A stretch of DNA of 33,205 bases, taken from the NCBI GenBank assembly GCA_021608145.1, contig JAKIHM010000025.1, forward strand, positions 1-33,205, read 5' to 3'. Both the position numbers and the translations under genes were made by a program. The DNA is from Thermovorax subterraneus. GTDB taxonomy: Bacteria; Bacillota; Thermosediminibacteria; Thermosediminibacterales; Thermosediminibacteraceae. Of this stretch, positions 3,495 through 19,422 are shown one piece after another. Below the pieces are notes generated by a model, which saw only the letters and a program-made list of their open reading frames with translations, was not told the origin of the DNA and searched no databases. Numbering within the stretch: position 1 is the first letter of the stretch; every line of letters starts with the position of its first letter.

Positions 3495-3544
3495 ATGTAT
3501 AAAATTATTTTTGTAATTATACATGAATACCGAATTATTGTCAA
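3495..3544 (-). promoter_or_regulatory. Consensus promoter of the carboxylase operon, with inverted repeat
   Basis: TTGACA (3539-3544), a 17-bp spacer and TATAAT (3516-3521) form a textbook sigma-A promoter reading into the carboxyltransferase gene. An 8-bp inverted repeat, ATGTATAA (3495-3502) with TTATACAT (3517-3524), overlaps the -10 box and the start site, so it could be a repressor operator. The repeat is AT-rich and no regulator is identified. Confidence 0.85.
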
Positions 3545-4391: not shown

Positions 4392-4979
4392 ATGCCGAAT
4401 TTAATCGCTTTTTTGTCCTATGCCCTTATCAACACCTTTACTCCAGGGCCGAACAATATTCTATCGATGACTTTCGCGACAAATATGGGGTTCAAAAAAA
4501 CCTTCAAGTTCATTTTGGGAGTAGCCGCCGGATTCACGGTGGTGATGATACTTTGCAACTACTTTAACCTCTTCCTTTTTTCCGCCGTACCTCTTACGGG
4601 GGAAATTATGAAAATTTTCGGTGCAATATACATAATTTATCTTGCGGTGAAGATATTAAGAAGCAATCCGGATGAAAATAATTCACTTATGGAAAAAAGC
4701 AGTTCCTTTGGCACGGGTCTCCTGCTACAGTTTTTCAACCCCAAAGTTATCCTCTACGGTATAACCGTGACCTCGAGCTTCATAACGCCTTACTATAAAT
4801 CGAATCTTTCGATCATAATGTTTTCCCTTTTTCTTGCGTTTCTGAGCTTTGTTTCGACATGCTCCTGGGCGTTATTCGGCACCATGTTTCAGCGAATACT
4901 CAAAAAGCACTATGCCGCATTTAATACGGTAATGGCAATTCTCTTGCTCTACACCGCTTTCTCGATTCTAAAATCTTAA
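4392..4979 (+). CDS. LysE/RhtB family amino-acid exporter
   Basis: A 195-residue membrane protein with the family's N-terminal signature FTPGPNN near residue 17 and about six hydrophobic segments. LysE/RhtB proteins export amino acids such as lysine, threonine, homoserine or cysteine derivatives by proton exchange; the substrate cannot be told from sequence. The ATG is supported by AGGAGGT seven bases upstream; the frame is open 33 codons further but that stretch has no ribosome site. It is the only plus-strand gene in this part of the window and separates recR from yaaL-bofA, which are normally adjacent, so it was probably inserted here. Confidence 0.88.
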   Translation: MPNLIAFLSYALINTFTPGPNNILSMTFATNMGFKKTFKFILGVAAGFTVVMILCNYFNLFLFSAVPLTGEIMKIFGAIYIIYLAVKILRSNPDENNSLMEKSSSFGTGLLLQFFNPKVILYGITVTSSFITPYYKSNLSIIMFSLFLAFLSFVSTCSWALFGTMFQRILKKHYAAFNTVMAILLLYTAFSILKS

Positions 4980-5026
4980 CATTTCTTTTTATAATGTTTG
5001 CAAAACTTGCCCTATCATCTTTTCCT

Positions 5027-5623
5027 CTATATTTCCCTTCTACCTTCCAGCGCTTTCGCAAGGGTTATCTCGTCCGCATAGTCAAGGTCCCCACCCACCG
5101 GTAGGCCGTGGGCTATGCGCGTAACTTTGAGCCCCAGGGGTTTTAAAAGCCTTGCGATATAAAGCGCCGTTGCCTCGCCTTCCACGTCGGGGTTGGTGGC
5201 AATTATTACTTCCTTTACGCCGGAGGAAACCCTAGCAAGAAGCTCCTTTATCCTTATATCATCGGGACCTATACCCTCAAGGGGCGATATGACGCCGTGC
5301 AACACGTGATACAGCCCTTTGTAGTCCCTCGTCTTTTCCACCGCCACCACGTCCTTGGGCTCTTCAACAACCATTATTGTAGTCTTATCCCTGTGCTGGG
5401 CGCTGCATATACTGCAGGGGTCTACGTCGGTAAAATTCCCGCACACGGAACAGTACACTATGGATTCTTTTGCATCGGTTATAGCCTGGACGAGGTTTGC
5501 CACCCTTTCTTTCGACATCTTCAGGATGTAAAAAGTAAGCCTCTGGGCCGTCTTCGGCCCTATGCCTGGCAGTCGCGAGAGTTCATCTATAAGCCGGGCT
5601 ATGGGCTGTGCGTAATACGCCAT
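5027..5623 (-). CDS. recR: Recombination mediator protein RecR
   Basis: RecR works with RecF/RecO to load RecA on gapped DNA. The 198-residue sequence has the N-terminal helix-hairpin-helix ([13 protein letters not shown]), the four-cysteine zinc finger CSVC...CSIC, and a Toprim domain with MVVEEPKD and [16 protein letters not shown]. The second of two in-frame ATGs is used because GGAAGG lies six bases before it. It follows ybaB by 12 bases and belongs to the dnaX-ybaB-recR operon. Confidence 0.96.
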
Positions 5624-5635
5624 ATCCATCCTTCC

Positions 5636-5965
5636 CTAAAAGAGCCCCGGTATATTGAGGCCTCCGGTGAGTTTTGCCATTTCGCTCGTCACCATTTCTT
5701 CGGCCTTTTGCAGGGCTTCGTTGACAGCAGCAAGGATCAAATCTTCCAACATCTCCACATCCTCCGGGTCCACGACCTCCGGCTGAATCTTTACTTCCAC
5801 AAGTTCTTTTTTGCCGTTAGCCACGACCTTTATCGCGCCACCGCCTGCTGTCGCTTCCACGGTCCTTTCTTTTAGTTCCTCCTGGAGCTTTGCCATCTCT
5901 TCTTGCATCTTTTGGACTTGCTTCATCAACTTATTTATATTCCCCATACCGCCGAAATTTTTCAT
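5636..5965 (-). CDS. YbaB/EbfC family nucleoid-associated protein
   Basis: A 109-residue member of the YbaB/EbfC family, dimeric DNA-binding proteins encoded between dnaX and recR in most bacteria. The N-terminal part is a long Gln/Glu/Lys-rich helix ([17 protein letters not shown]), followed by strands with a Gly-rich turn ([18 protein letters not shown]) and a C-terminal helix. GGAGGT lies eight bases before the ATG. Its size and place between dnaX and recR are standard. Confidence 0.95.
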
Positions 5966-5986
5966 AAGCGCATACCTCCATTCTTT

Positions 5987-7789
5987 TTATTCGTCTTCTA
6001 TTTCCACCAGGTCCTCGCCGAAAAGCTCGACGGCGCTCCTGATGAATTCTTCATCGGAGACATCTTCATCCTTCGACGCGGCTACCTCTTCATTTTTTTT
6101 TAGTCCTTTGATTATAACTTCCAATCCCGTAATGCTTTTAATCCCTTCTTCTATCAATTTTTTCTGCATCTCGATAAGGGTCTTATGCCCGTCGTAGCCT
6201 CCAAAAGAAAGCACAAGCATTCCATTTTTCATATCGATAGGTTCAACCCTGCATTCCCTCATGACGTTTACCAAGGCCATCTTCCCCGACTTTTCTAATT
6301 CTTCCAACACATCCTGCCACTTTGCCTTTAATTTCTCTAAAGCCCCGTCATCTCCTTGTCCCTTCCTCTCCGGGCTTTCCGCGGCTTTCTCCTCCGGCGC
6401 ATTTTGCAATTCATTCGGGCTGTTTTTGGAAAATTCTCCTTTCGCGCTTATCTTGACCGCTTTAATATTTTTCCCCGCCGTACCTTCTTCGGCTTTTCTC
6501 AATTTTTCCTTTTCGTACGCAGCTTTCCCTTCTATTATGCCTTCTCCCTCAACCTCACCGTTCAACGTTTCAGATGTTTTATTTTCTTTTTCCTGTTCAA
6601 AACGTGCCGAGTTTTCTATAAGCTCTTTTAACCTTCTTTCCAGCTCTTCAATCCTTTCTTCCAAAGCCGTAAGTCTCGCAGTTTCTCCAACATTTCCCGC
6701 CCAAAGCTCCGGCATGGCAAGTTTTACCATGGCTGTTTCCAACACAATCCTCGGCTGGGTGGCCCACCGCACATCGCCAGCAGCTTTTTTTAACAGGTCC
6801 AATGAATTTAGAATTTCTTCTGTAGAATAAACCTTTGTCAAGGCCTTAAGGCTGTTATAATCTTCATCGGTCAAGTCGACGAGTTCCCGGCTTGCACCTA
6901 TCTCCACCATCAGCATATTCCTGTAAAGGGACATCAGATCGTCCACAAAGCGCACGAGGTCTTTGCCGCTTTCTACTACTTCTTCAATTACATCTAAAAT
7001 TCTGCCAGGATTCCTTTCCTTTGCAGCTTTCGCTATATCTATCAAAAGGTCATCGCCCACCGCGCCAAAAAGAGAAAGCGCATCTTCAAATGTAAGCCTG
7101 TTTCCGCCATAAGAAAGAGCTTTGTCGAGCAGGCTCAGGGCATCCCGCATGGACCCTTGTGAATTTCTCGCAATAAAGGCAAGAGCTCTTTCATCGGCCT
7201 CAATGCCGTTCTCTTGTGCGATCCTCTTCAGGTGAGGAAGCATTTCCCGAGCCTGAACCTTCTTAAAATCAAATCTCATGCACCGCGATAAAATCGTAGC
7301 GGGAAGCTTGTTTGGCTCTGTGGTTGCCAGGATGAAAACCACGTGGCGAGGCGGTTCTTCAAGGGTCTTCAAAAGAGCATTGAAAGCCTCAGTGGTGAGC
7401 ATGTGCACCTCATCGATTATGTAAACCCTGTAGCGTCCTTCCGACGGCGGAAAATTCACCCGCTCTCTCAGGGCCCTGATGTCATCTATTCCCCTGTTAG
7501 ACGCGGCGTCCATTTCGATGACATCCATCATGGCCCCTTCATTTATGGCGGTGCAATTCCTGCATCGATTGCAAGGTGTGTCTGTAGGGCCTTGCTCGCA
7601 ATTCAAAGCTTTCGCCAAAACCCTGGCTGTGCTCGTTTTCCCCGTGCCTCTCATACCGCAAAAAAGATAGGCATGTCCTATTTTCCCTGATTTCACCTGG
7701 TTTTTTAAAGTTCTTACAATAGCTTCCTGGCCCACGATTTCATCGAAATCTTTTGGCCTGTACTTCCTGTAAAGGGCTATGTAAGCCAT
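5987..7789 (-). CDS. dnaX: DNA polymerase III subunit gamma/tau
   Basis: Clamp-loader ATPase, 600 residues from the ATG at MAYIALYRKYRP. It shows Walker A GMRGTGKTSTA, the four-cysteine zinc module (C-x8-C-x2-C-x2-C), the Walker B-like DEVHML, sensor/Arg-finger SRC and a clamp-loader collar. A low-complexity Glu/Lys-rich linker separates these from a C-terminal tau-type domain. The ATG is preceded by GGGGGAT five bases upstream; 13 extra upstream codons are unlikely to be translated. No convincing slippery sequence for a short gamma form was seen. It lies just after the SRP RNA terminator with no clear promoter of its own. Confidence 0.97.
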   Translation of the reverse strand: MAYIALYRKYRPKDFDEIVGQEAIVRTLKNQVKSGKIGHAYLFCGMRGTGKTSTARVLAKALNCEQGPTDTPCNRCRNCTAINEGAMMDVIEMDAASNRGIDDIRALRERVNFPPSEGRYRVYIIDEVHMLTTEAFNALLKTLEEPPRHVVFILATTEPNKLPATILSRCMRFDFKKVQAREMLPHLKRIAQENGIEADERALAFIARNSQGSMRDALSLLDKALSYGGNRLTFEDALSLFGAVGDDLLIDIAKAAKERNPGRILDVIEEVVESGKDLVRFVDDLMSLYRNMLMVEIGASRELVDLTDEDYNSLKALTKVYSTEEILNSLDLLKKAAGDVRWATQPRIVLETAMVKLAMPELWAGNVGETARLTALEERIEELERRLKELIENSARFEQEKENKTSETLNGEVEGEGIIEGKAAYEKEKLRKAEEGTAGKNIKAVKISAKGEFSKNSPNELQNAPEEKAAESPERKGQGDDGALEKLKAKWQDVLEELEKSGKMALVNVMRECRVEPIDMKNGMLVLSFGGYDGHKTLIEMQKKLIEEGIKSITGLEVIIKGLKKNEEVAASKDEDVSDEEFIRSAVELFGEDLVEIEDE

Positions 7790-15546: not shown

Positions 15547-16122
15547 TCAAAAAACGTCCGTCAAATCTATTATAAGATCGTCAAAAATCGAAACCTTTAC
15601 TTTATCTCCCACACTGTATGTATCAGGCCTGCCGTACCTATTATTCTCTTGCAACGTAAATACGCTCACAATTTTATTTTCAGGTTCGACTATCCAATAT
15701 TCCTTCACTCCGTGCCTTTCATACAAATTAAATTTTTCTATCTTATCTTTTCTTGCACTAGACGGAGATGTAATCTCGACAATCAAATCGGGCGCTCCCT
15801 TACATCCTTCATCATCCAGCTTTGTTTTATCGCAAACAACTACAATATCCGGCTCTACGACATTTTTTATTTCTTTATCACTTCGATCGTTCTCGGTAGG
15901 AAATCTTACTCCAAAGGGGGCATAATAAACTTCGCAATCTTTACCTTTCAAATAATTGAAAAACTGAGCATATATAGCTCCTGATACTTTTTGGTGTAAT
16001 CTTGATGGTGGAGCCATTAAATAAACATAACCGTTAATCAACTCTATCCTCTGCATATCGGTCCAGTTTAGATAATCTTCATATGTAAAAATTTTCCCTT
16101 TATCTTTTTCGGGCAAAGGCAT
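15547..16122 (-). CDS. Uma2 family (DUF820) putative endonuclease
   Basis: A 191-residue protein of the Uma2/DUF820 family, which has a PD-(D/E)XK nuclease-like fold and unknown role. The N-terminal helix region reads FTYEDYLNWTDMQRIELING, followed by HQKVSGAIYAQFF. The presumed active-site strands are EPDIVVV and APDLIVEITSPS, then KEYWIVEPE and a C-terminal strand domain. GGGAGTG lies about six bases before the ATG; 22 open upstream codons cover the promoter. It has its own promoter and terminator and a shortened relative at 8818-8955. Such genes are often multicopy. Confidence 0.9.
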   Translation of the reverse strand: MPLPEKDKGKIFTYEDYLNWTDMQRIELINGYVYLMAPPSRLHQKVSGAIYAQFFNYLKGKDCEVYYAPFGVRFPTENDRSDKEIKNVVEPDIVVVCDKTKLDDEGCKGAPDLIVEITSPSSARKDKIEKFNLYERHGVKEYWIVEPENKIVSVFTLQENNRYGRPDTYSVGDKVKVSIFDDLIIDLTDVF

Positions 16123-16186
16123 AATTGACACTCCCTGCAATCTGCAATTGCTGAGTTTTCGCACTTTTCTCAGAATCTTTATCCTC

Positions 16187-16216
16187 ATTATACTACACTT
16201 GCTCCTGCGTTTTCAA
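16187..16216 (-). promoter_or_regulatory. Promoter of the intact Uma2 gene
   Basis: TTGAAA (16211-16216), 18 bp, TATAAT (16187-16192), with the flank TTTTCAACAAGC shared with the promoter of the Uma2 relic. Confidence 0.85.
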
Positions 16217-16270: not shown

Positions 16271-16888
16271 TTAATTTCCTCCAAAATTTTTTTTTATCAA
16301 AACAATCCCCAATATCAAAAAAATCAACGCCCCTACAGCCATCGAATAGTAATCCATATACAACACAACCCTATCCCAAGCATTCCCGGCTAATCTTCCC
16401 AGGAAAACCAGCGCTGTATTCCAGATAAACGTCCCTATTATGGTTAGAAGCAAAAAGATATTCATTTTCATCCTTGTCATACCCGCAGGGACCGAGATTA
16501 TACTCCGCATGAAGGGTATAAATCTGCATATCAAAACTGCTTTGCTCCCATATCTATCAAACCAACGCCTGGCATTCCTTAAATCCTCTTTTTTTAAGCG
16601 GAACACCTTAAAAATCCCTCTGCTAAAAATTCTTTCTACCTTCTCCGTAGTGAGCTTTCGCCCTATCTCATACAAAAAAATTGCACCCGCCACTGCTCCT
16701 AACGTGGCAGATACGATGACTCCCCATACCTTCATATTCGTATAGACGGTTACAAAACCGCTAAAAAGAAGAATTACTTCGGAAGGTATGGGCGGAAAAA
16801 TATTTTCTATTGCAATCAACAAGAAGATGCCGGCATAGCCGTAAGCGTTGACGATATCAATGATAAAATTCTGCATCGTATTATACAT
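16271..16888 (-). CDS. DedA family membrane protein
   Basis: A 205-residue integral membrane protein of the DedA/VTT family, several members of which flip polyprenyl or other phospholipids. Family marks are the N-terminal GIFLLIAIENIFPPIPSEVI, the reentrant loop, RFIPFMRSIISVPAGMTRM with its conserved arginines, and four or five further hydrophobic segments. The start is uncertain: GGGGGA directly touches the first ATG, while the ATG four codons later is 13 bases from it. It stands alone between the Uma2 gene and the AAA+ operon. Confidence 0.9.
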   Translation of the reverse strand: MYNTMQNFIIDIVNAYGYAGIFLLIAIENIFPPIPSEVILLFSGFVTVYTNMKVWGVIVSATLGAVAGAIFLYEIGRKLTTEKVERIFSRGIFKVFRLKKEDLRNARRWFDRYGSKAVLICRFIPFMRSIISVPAGMTRMKMNIFLLLTIIGTFIWNTALVFLGRLAGNAWDRVVLYMDYYSMAVGALIFLILGIVLIKKNFGGN

Positions 16889-17004
16889 TCCCCCGTCAGA
16901 AATTTAACTTTTAATATACCGGATGTCTCTCAAAAAATATATTTATCGCCGATAAATCTTCGTCGAAACCTTTGTTCGTCCTTGAAGCACCCTTCATCAC
17001 TCTT

Positions 17005-18354
17005 TTATAAAAACCCCAGATGCATTTTTTGGACCTTTTTTACTCCCGAATTGCCCTTCAGTATTTCTTCCGAGGCCCTTCTTATATCTTCGCGGGTTAT
17101 AAGCCTCAACGCTTTCAGGTCGGCATTATCAAGGTCAATGCGCCCGGCCTGGATTAATAGGCAATTTTGAAGAAGGCGCCTTGCCTCCCGTCCGTTGCCG
17201 TAATCATCGCTTTTAGCCCTTTCTTTAAAAAATTGTACGGCTACTTCCTCCCATCCCTCCTCCAGCTCTATATCCGAATTCTTTGCAAGAGTCCGGAATA
17301 TCATTGGCATCTCTTTTTCCGGTGAGTAAGGATAAAATTCAACGAAGAATGTGATGCGCGACGCTATCCCCGGATTACTTTTAAGCCACCCTCCAACTAA
17401 ATTGTGTTCTTCCATAACACCCCCTCCGTAACCAGCTAGGATAACCAGCTTATTGCAGTTTTTCGAAACATTCTCAAGCTGCACGCATAATTCCGCCAGT
17501 ATCTCCTGCGAAAACACGTCAATCCCTCTTCCGTCGTCTACAGCCACCGAGTAAATTTCATCCAAAAATATCACATCGTGTTCCTCAAACAATTTCCTGG
17601 TCAGGGGCGCACTATGTCCGAGGAACTGTCCCTTGCACAACGTTACAGCGCTGCCCGAAATCATACGATTTCCCGGCAAAAGTCCTTCTTCGCAAAATAT
17701 CTCTCCCATAATTTCCGCAAGGCGAGTCTTTCCCGTGCCCGGTGGTCCGTAAAAAAGGAAAATGGGAGCAAAATCGATGGGACATAGTCCAAACTTCTGC
17801 CGCACCATTCTTAATTTCAGTAATTTAACAGCCTGCAAAATCTTTTGTTTTTGTTCCTTGAGTCCGTAAATCTCTTGGTTTAACCTATCGTAAGCAGACT
17901 TTTTCCTTTGCCCGTAGCTTTCTCTAGGATTTCCGTCAAGCTCAATACTGCAATAATCTGTAGTTTCTACCTCCAATATTTCTCCGTCGCCTATTTCAAT
18001 TCCTTCTAGTAGTTTTTCAAATATCACATCGAGATCCTCTTCTACTTTATCTTCCCAATCGACTTTATAACCTTTCCCGCTTATAAAAGCAATTGCGATC
18101 ATCTTCAACTCTTCCGAATCCGGACGCTCGATTATCGCTGAACAAAGTCTTTCAACTGCCGAAACGTCTTTAATCATCTCAAGAAATCTCCTGTATTTTT
18201 GCTTTTTCCTTTCAAGACCAAAAATTTCGTATATAAATTTTACATCTTCCTCTATCTTAGAAATCGGCAGTCCGGTTTTAATCGCTACCCTTATGCAGGC
18301 AGCCTTACTATCCCGATCAAGAGAACATCTCCTCTTTTTATTTAACATTTTCAT
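17005..18354 (-). CDS. CbxX/SpoVK-type AAA+ ATPase
   Basis: About 449 residues. The N-terminal 160 residues are helical and unassigned. The C-terminal half is a CbxX/CfxQ-like AAA+ module: Walker A GPPGTGKT near 203-210, Walker B VIFLDEIY near 261-268, sensor 1 in VILAGYGGG, arginine finger in NPGIASR, and sensor 2 in NGREARRLL. This family includes rubisco activase CbxX, SpoVK and the EccA proteins of type VII secretion; all remodel partner proteins. The ATG shares one base with the stop codon of the upstream gene (TGATG) and has AGGGAGGG eight bases upstream. The partner here is unknown; the two small upstream proteins are the obvious candidates. Confidence 0.88.
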   Translation of the reverse strand: MKMLNKKRRCSLDRDSKAACIRVAIKTGLPISKIEEDVKFIYEIFGLERKKQKYRRFLEMIKDVSAVERLCSAIIERPDSEELKMIAIAFISGKGYKVDWEDKVEEDLDVIFEKLLEGIEIGDGEILEVETTDYCSIELDGNPRESYGQRKKSAYDRLNQEIYGLKEQKQKILQAVKLLKLRMVRQKFGLCPIDFAPIFLFYGPPGTGKTRLAEIMGEIFCEEGLLPGNRMISGSAVTLCKGQFLGHSAPLTRKLFEEHDVIFLDEIYSVAVDDGRGIDVFSQEILAELCVQLENVSKNCNKLVILAGYGGGVMEEHNLVGGWLKSNPGIASRITFFVEFYPYSPEKEMPMIFRTLAKNSDIELEEGWEEVAVQFFKERAKSDDYGNGREARRLLQNCLLIQAGRIDLDNADLKALRLITREDIRRASEEILKGNSGVKKVQKMHLGFL

Positions 18355-18647
18355 CAATTCAACCCTCCCTCATAATATTCCGACAGGGAGTCGGGGTTAT
18401 ATTTATCATAATACTCATAAGCTTTATAATAAAGTTGAATGGGGGTTTTTATCCTCCTATGCTCTATCACGCTCTTATAATTGCGGTAATAATAGACGGC
18501 TGCAGCAGAAAGATCTAGGTAATACCTGCCATTCTTTTTTTCCGCCCCAAGTCTCTTCATTATGTTTATTGCTTCATGATATTTTAAATTTTTTCCACAG
18601 GTAAGATAATAATAAATTACCCTAAAATCAAAAGATGATATATTCAT
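18354..18647 (-). CDS. Tyrosine-rich small protein of unknown function
   Basis: A 97-residue protein I do not recognise. It has 18 tyrosines, in clusters such as IYYYL, RYYL, VYYYRNY, LYYKAYEYYDKY and SEYY, and is predicted by eye to be mostly helical and soluble, with no signal peptide. The central AINIMKRLGAEKKNGRYYLD could be a small DNA- or protein-binding helix-turn-helix-like unit, but this is weak. AGGGAGG is eight bases before the ATG. Its stop codon overlaps the start of the AAA+ gene, so stoichiometric co-expression is likely. Confidence 0.8.
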   Translation of the reverse strand: MNISSFDFRVIYYYLTCGKNLKYHEAINIMKRLGAEKKNGRYYLDLSAAAVYYYRNYKSVIEHRRIKTPIQLYYKAYEYYDKYNPDSLSEYYEGGLN

Positions 18648-18683
18648 TGCTCAAACCTCCCTCTGCTAAATTTAATTTTTACC

Positions 18684-19106
18684 TTAATCTTGATCTTCAT
18701 ATCTTTTAATTTTCAACACTTTTCCCTCGCTATCAAATATAGCTGTTATCTTAGTATCCGGCTTTAATTCGGGGTGCCTTGAATAAAATTTCGTAAGACC
18801 ATCAATTCTACCTTTTACAGTCCTGTGAGTTTTGGCGGTTATCTTCTCTCCATAGTAATCGATAGTTATCTCCTCGCCCAATGGCATCACCTTACCTACG
18901 CTACTTTTTGCCCCAAGGGTCAAGATCCCAAATTTTACTTGCGTTTCCGTCAGTGTATGGATTGTAGTTTCATCTTCCTTTTTCCCTTGCATTCTTACGC
19001 TCTTTAACCTAACTGAATCAATACTCAGGTCTTCATTTTCAAGGTCTAGGTTGAACAAAAATTCCAATTCCAGAACTATAGAAGTTTTTAAGTTTTTTTC
19101 TTTCAT
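18684..19106 (-). CDS. Conserved-looking protein of unknown function, first gene of AAA+ operon
   Basis: A 140-residue protein not assigned to a family. The first half is strand-rich and acidic (VLELEFLFNLDLENEDLSID). The second half has alternating strands (EEITIDYYGEKITAKTHRTV), a helix with the phrase GRIDGLTKFYSRHPELKP, and a final strand pair. It could be a small beta-barrel, perhaps nucleic-acid binding, but no known motif proves it. AAAGGAG lies seven bases before the ATG, and a perfect consensus promoter drives the gene. The next gene follows after 36 bp. Confidence 0.8.
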   Translation of the reverse strand: MKEKNLKTSIVLELEFLFNLDLENEDLSIDSVRLKSVRMQGKKEDETTIHTLTETQVKFGILTLGAKSSVGKVMPLGEEITIDYYGEKITAKTHRTVKGRIDGLTKFYSRHPELKPDTKITAIFDSEGKVLKIKRYEDQD

Positions 19107-19165
19107 ATTATCGCTCCTTTCCGTTTAATTTTTGCCACCTTTACGATAGTTTAATTTATAGATTA

Positions 19166-19194
19166 ATTATAGATTGGATTTGATAATTTGTCAA
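19166..19194 (-). promoter_or_regulatory. Perfect sigma-A promoter of the three-gene AAA+ operon
   Basis: TTGACA (19189-19194), 17 bp, TATAAT (19166-19171): both hexamers match consensus exactly. The start site would be about 50 bp before the ATG of the 140-residue protein. Confidence 0.9.
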
Positions 19195-19269
19195 TACTAT
19201 TTTTTTGTTTTCAAGTATTATTTTTATCTTGTCTTTATTGTACATCTGCAATGCTTATTTAAACTAAAA

Positions 19270-19305
19270 ACCACACTCCCTTTTTCATTAAACCCGGAGT
19301 GTGGT
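19270..19305 (-). terminator. Terminator of the tRNA operon
   Basis: ACCACACTCC and GGAGTGTGGT form a perfect 10-bp stem, followed on the minus strand by TTTTTAG. It lies 22 bp beyond the last tRNA. Confidence 0.85.
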
Positions 19306-19327
19306 CTTTTCCATCAAAAAATAATAA

Positions 19328-19422
19328 TGGCGGAGAGAGCGGGATTCGAACCCGCGAGACGGGGATTTTCCCCGTCTACTCGATTTCCAGTCGAGCGCCT
19401 TCGACCACTCAGCCATCTCTCC
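19328..19422 (-). tRNA. tRNA-Ser (GGA)
   Basis: Class II cloverleaf with long variable arm. The acceptor GGAGAGA pairs with TCTCTCC, the anticodon loop CTGGAAA sits on the stem CTCGA/TCGAG, the T-loop is TTCGAAT, and G73 with CCA is encoded. It reads UCC/UCU codons. Confidence 0.96.

Follow-up and report, generated by a model that had tools for sequence, protein, structure and literature searches.

A predicted B3-fold protein, a small tyrosine-rich protein and a CbxX-clade AAA+ ATPase encoded in an optional operon of Thermovorax subterraneus

The window analysed here is a stretch of 33,205 nucleotides of Thermovorax subterraneus (assembly GCA_021608145.1, contig JAKIHM010000025.1, positions 1 to 33,205), and positions are counted from its first letter. 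Translation of its open reading frames gives three tightly packed genes on the minus strand, encoding a protein of 140 residues (18684..19106), one of 97 residues (18354..18647) and an AAA+ ATPase (17005..18357). The stop codon of the second gene and the start of the third overlap as TGATG, and because of this overlap the ATPase is more likely to start at ATG 18354, which is preceded by GGAGGG and gives 449 residues, than at TTG 18357, which gives 450. The original prediction of a three-gene operon with its last two genes overlapping was thus correct. The operon lies between a gene for tRNA-Ser (19328-19422) on one side and dedA (16271-16888) on the other, and the window's own flanks of the operon are housekeeping genes. 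Judged by eye, the tRNA unit has a terminator-like hairpin at about 19265-19315, and this precedes the promoter of the operon, a sigma-70 type TTGACA-17-TATAAT (19166..19194, minus strand) that agrees with the predicted consensus at 12 of 12 positions and is conserved in the sister species (G004). Such an exact match is good but not unique, since the window has a second one at 3544, also on the minus strand and near a small-protein region upstream of carboxylase genes. Two copies of TTATAGATT, 11 bp apart, lie over the -10 box (19156..19175), and we speculate that this direct repeat is a candidate operator; one of the copies carries a mismatch in G004, and the DNA is AT-rich there, so the repeat could be due to chance.

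The proteins of the window and of G004 are 90-96% identical, and the pairwise dN/dS values from this one genome pair (0.28 for the 140-residue protein, 0.12 for the 97-residue protein and 0.12 for the ATPase) show that the three genes are real and under purifying selection. At synonymous sites the ATPase gene has diverged by 0.40 from that of G004, while dedA and the neighbouring genes of the operon show about 0.18-0.20; the difference hints at an allele replacement within the ATPase gene. A remnant of a fourth gene at 16911..17000 on the minus strand escaped the original prediction. Only its last 28 codons are left, with 82% identity to residues 99-126 of an intact gene of 127 codons in G004, where the full set of four genes (140, 97, ATPase and 127 residues) is present. 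At the same site in G002 the 140-residue gene is followed directly by a shortened, internally deleted fourth gene, and there is neither a gene for the 97-residue protein nor one for the ATPase. In G003, which belongs to the same genus and is 99% complete, the same tRNA-Ser and the start of dedA are 165 bp apart, and no traces of the operon were found between the two. This empty site shows that the operon is optional here, in line with the accessory nature that had been suggested for it. The site also appears to collect insertions, as G004 has a 121-residue piece of a peroxiredoxin (AhpC/TSA, 1-Cys C-domain; L028 11294-11659) between the operon and the tRNA cluster, which is missing from the window. 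At 15547-16188 on the minus strand, the window encodes a protein of 213 residues with a strong PADLOC match to the candidate family PDC-S03 (E 1.4e-59), presumably a Uma2-type nuclease, and this gene is not at the corresponding place in G004.

One explanation for such a patchy site would be that the operon is left over from the decay of a larger mobile cluster and no longer has a coherent function. The fourth gene, reduced here to its 28 codons and internally deleted in G002, fits with decay, and so do the lack of the ATPase and the 97-residue protein in G002 and a second, truncated ATPase fragment in G025. We nevertheless consider it very unlikely, because the three frames are open, the catalytic residues are conserved, all three dN/dS values lie at 0.12-0.28 and the strong promoter has been kept.

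The ATPase matches the Pfam families AAA (E 3.7e-14) and AAA_lid_6 (E 5.5e-7), both over their gathering scores, and a CbbX chain among the PDB sequences (E 2e-25). Its AAA+ module with lid, placed at residues 152-425 (17080..17901, minus strand) by motifs and by PDB sequence and profile matches, has the Walker A motif GPPGTGKT, the Walker B motif FLDE, the pore loop GQFLGH, GY in sensor-1, the arginine finger NPGIASR and GNGREARR in sensor-2, and judged from these the catalytic motifs are intact. A loss of the arginine finger (NPGIASR compared to NPGFRSR) was considered and dropped, as the clade is variable at the first of these positions and SR is kept. The hallmarks of SpoVK, CbbX and EccA, which are GY in sensor-1, an Asn shortly before the arginine finger and a sensor-2 Arg (PMC10659427), all recur in the ATPase (VILAGYGGG, SNPGIASR and GNGREARR), and on these sequence features it belongs to the SpoVK/CbbX/EccA, or CbxX, clade. 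The CbxX/SpoVK-like label of the original prediction holds for the clade, but the protein is not SpoVK, CbbX or EccA itself, with scores of 90.8 bits against a cut-off of 422.95 for SpoVK (TIGR02881), 100.7 against 459.25 for CbbX (TIGR02880) and 97 against 466.65 for EccA (TIGR03922). The genome has its own SpoVK on another contig (G000:C44), which at 431.5 bits is over the cut-off; this separate gene, together with the score far below the curated cut-off, means that the ATPase of the operon is not a SpoVK ortholog. There was no match to WXG100 (PF06013) at E 1e-3 in the same genome, and an assignment to a known SpoVK or ESX pathway is not supported. In a tree of AAA domains the ATPases of the window, G004 and G025 make up a branch of their own (100/100), in a tree with long branches and an unresolved deep order. 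The first residues, about 1-97 (18064..18354, minus strand), match no Pfam family and form a private N-terminal domain that is common to the G025 ATPase and to a 203-residue protein of G005. That ATPases of this type always remodel a specific partner, as the prediction had it, is a generalisation, but the characterised members are dedicated chaperones (SpoVK for MurG, CbbX for Rubisco, and EccA; PMC10659427), and by analogy the present protein is likely to be a hexameric dedicated remodeller.

In the original prediction neither small protein resembled a known partner such as rubisco, ESX or sporulation proteins, and sequence libraries do not name them: nothing credible was found for either in Pfam, NCBIfam, PHROGs or PADLOC, or in PDB sequence searches with the families of the 140-residue and 97-residue proteins and of a 172-residue protein from the variants described below. 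For the 140-residue protein the prediction is to be corrected, since it had missed a fold that can be recognised. The family alignment has seven members and the structure was modelled with AlphaFold2 from four sequences. The protein, correctly predicted to be rich in strands, is modelled as a beta barrel, confidently so at residues 46-140 and with pLDDT >90 for most of residues 50-130, while an N-terminal extension of 45 residues lies outside the confident part. In a Foldseek search against the PDB the top 26 rows are all B3 domains, though the E-values are borderline and the lowest is 1.8e-3. The VIA-align list starts with 28 rows of B3 domains, with Z from 9.7 to 4.8 as against 4.2 for the first unrelated row, and these include the plant proteins VRN1, VAL1 and ARF as well as the bacterial LlaJI.R1, BfiI, EcoRII, NgoAVII and UbaLAI. 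Residues 46-140 are confidently modelled as a B3 domain, which has a DNA-binding pseudobarrel fold, and the protein may bind DNA in a sequence-specific manner. The invariant residues H94, G99, R100, D102 and L104 are found in or after the connection between strands 87-93 and 100-102, which we take to match a DNA-contacting arm of B3 domains. Foldseek of the same model against viral models gave nothing convincing.

The protein of 97 residues is indeed rich in tyrosine (18/97) and basic (pI 9.2), and its gene is coupled in translation to that of the ATPase. Its single-sequence model has a mean pLDDT of 65, and a MerR-type winged helix, for which RacA (Z 3.2) and GlnR (Z 3.0) came up, is too weak to claim. 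It was found solely beside the ATPase, in three out of three genomes (G000, which is the genome of the window, G004 and G025), with 59% identity in G025.

The complete trio is present in two sister species only, G000 and G004. It was predicted to form a unit, and this agrees with the distribution of the 97-residue protein and the ATPase, but not with that of the B3 protein: G002, G005, G009, a Peptococcaceae MAG and a plasmid of Paenibacillus polymyxa all encode it but not the ATPase. In the last three the B3 gene is solitary; in G009 (L031 6964-7272) it is followed by an uncharacterised gene of 102 codons. G025 is of the same class but a different family, and its ATPase has 764 residues, with about 300 extra residues between the N-terminal domain and the AAA domain (L027 790-1860) that lack a Pfam match. 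No B3 sequence was found upstream of its 97-residue gene in the 173 bp before the contig ends. Genes of 172 and 256 codons follow the ATPase there, with a truncated second copy downstream: the region (L027 475-7941) is a partial tandem duplication consisting of a truncated ATPase C-terminus and a second gene of the 172-codon type, and a metallo-beta-lactamase-type gene (4690-6273) separates the two copies of this type. G005 has a B3 protein with 35% identity, followed by the 203-residue protein, the start of which matches the N-terminal domain of the ATPase (E 9e-11 to G025 and 4e-6 to the window); an AAA domain is not recognisable in it, and it is followed by a relative of the 172-residue protein (E 2e-32). 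The extra gene is thus variable, with 127 codons in G004 and 172-186 in G005 and G025. The B3 protein and the N-terminal domain are encoded by neighbouring genes in G000, G004 and G005. As far as the sequences go, this domain is what the multi-gene variants share and what links them, which suggests that it is a docking piece.

In a sample of about 400 genomes from across the phylum, no additional convincing relative of the B3 protein turned up, and in about 300 none of the 97-residue protein or the N-terminal domain. A scan of genome contigs with the ATPase found nothing, and one with the B3 alignment found three loci. A weak match in G005 (C43, L036) lies, by eye, inside an unrelated microcompartment-type gene. 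A Tepidanaerobacteraceae MAG represents a relative at the level of the order. The assemblies are incomplete and absences of genes are provisional. On this sampling the B3, 97-residue and N-domain family is narrow, and the gene cluster is rare and optional.

Since the B3 protein is often found without the ATPase, it need not be a partner of it and could be a mere regulator. In that case the ATPase would serve an enzyme or complex of the host as its dedicated chaperone, in the manner of SpoVK and with precedents in its clade as given above, and the B3 protein would only regulate transcription of its own operon. Genes for autoregulators often come first in their operons, as the B3 gene does here, and the direct repeat overlaps the -10 box. 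The link between the B3 protein and an isolated N-terminal domain in G005 points instead to a partnership between proteins and not to mere regulation, and no host target is indicated; we regard this combination of chaperone and autoregulator as quite unlikely.

Another possibility is a restriction-type system against phages or mobile elements, where the B3 protein reads a site on incoming DNA, the AAA+ ring acts as a motor or switch and the variable extra gene or a host protein provides the effector. In the cited studies the B3 domains characterised from bacteria serve restriction enzymes as their recognition parts (PMC4267653, PMC4081073, PMC12707154). The present operon is not always there at its site, and the B3 family is also found on the Paenibacillus plasmid. 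The G025 contig carries a GmrSD-type restriction gene, phage-type integrases and a Y2 transposase, and there is a NERD gene near the G005 variant. These surroundings are compatible with mobile or defence genes but are no proof, and those of the operon in the window are housekeeping genes. No nuclease, methyltransferase or toxin was found in the operon or its variants. PADLOC 2.0 yields only partial and generic AAA matches for the ATPase (best E 2e-6 over about 116 residues) and none for the small proteins. A phage origin was rejected, as no specific relatives were found in GenBank phages or IMG/VR, which also leaves no hint of an arms race. A role in defence, like the phage or stress response of the original prediction, is possible but unproven, and in the form of such a restriction-type system we find it rather unlikely.

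The explanation that we tentatively prefer, at somewhat under an even chance, is that the operon is accessory and encodes a remodelling machine of the AAA+ type that is tethered to DNA. The B3 protein would bind a particular DNA site as a reader, and the ATPase would dock onto it through its N-terminal domain, possibly helped by the 97-residue protein as an adaptor. The ATPase ring may then, as in CbbX and SpoVK, pull on one dedicated partner and thereby assemble, activate or strip a protein-DNA complex. The B3 protein could be this partner, and so could something bound to its site or the product of the variable extra gene. This reading is suggested by the B3 fold, the complete ATPase motifs, the tight operon, the conserved promoter and the purifying selection, as well as by the adjacency of B3 and N-domain, G005 included, and by the constant company of the 97-residue protein and the ATPase. 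It also has precedents in bacterial B3 domains that work with an NTPase, in LlaJI (PMC12707154, PMC7680126) and in CglI/NgoAVII (PMC4267653), and in the dedicated chaperones of the clade (PMC10659427). Against it we count that the B3 domain is called from a model of four sequences with borderline Foldseek E-values, and that in G025 the 173 bp between the 97-residue gene and the contig end upstream of it are free of a B3 gene. A more far-reaching hypothesis, which we consider doubtful, is that a B3 protein on its own marks sites on DNA and brings in a chaperone ring of the CbxX clade through the N-terminal domain and the small adaptor, so that a DNA-bound target is activated or dismantled. The purpose would be defence or keeping mobile DNA under control, and the partner genes would be exchangeable; this would be an undescribed kind of prokaryotic machine. 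The set of three is small, predicted to be soluble and easy to test.

We found no published description of a cluster of a B3 protein, a CbxX-type ATPase and a small companion. With the SpoVK/CbbX/EccA clade the ATPase has the AAA+ module, the lid and all hallmarks in common, but at 91-101 bits it is far from the cut-offs of 423-467, it has its own branch and its private N-terminal domain of about 97 residues, and its neighbour has a DNA-binding fold in the place of Rubisco, ESX or spore proteins. Targets are known for few members of this clade, and the members treated in PMC10659427 act on enzymes or secretion substrates; a B3 protein as the first gene would, if true, take the clade to DNA. 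LlaJI of the McrBC family also combines a B3 domain (LlaJI.R1, Z 7.6) with an NTPase of the AAA+ type, but there one protein unites the B3 domain with an McrB-type NTPase and is accompanied by an McrC nuclease and two methyltransferases (PMC12707154), whereas in the window the B3 domain is in a separate protein and the ATPase is of CbxX type. By Pfam, neither an McrC-type nuclease nor methyltransferases were found in the operon genes or the extra genes of the variants. McrBC and LlaJI have a MNxxDRS motif in the place of sensor-1 (PMC7680126), and the sensor-1 region here is VILAGYGGG. In CglI and NgoAVII (NgoAVII B3 domain Z 6.4) a single operon encodes the B3 domain and the NTPase as two proteins, as here, but a PLD nuclease is fused to the B3 domain and an SF2 helicase serves as the NTPase (PMC4267653), while the 140-residue protein is too short to accommodate a nuclease domain and the ATPase is AAA+. 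The resemblance to LlaJI and CglI is thus limited to the combination of B3 domain and NTPase. The best structural matches of the modelled domain are the plant transcription factors VRN1, VAL1 and ARF (Z 8.0-9.7), with a sequence identity of only 10-17%, and in contrast to these the protein is bacterial and stand-alone, with its N-terminal extension of 45 residues. A stand-alone bacterial B3 family would bear on how this fold evolved, the other known carriers of which are restriction enzymes and plant transcription factors.
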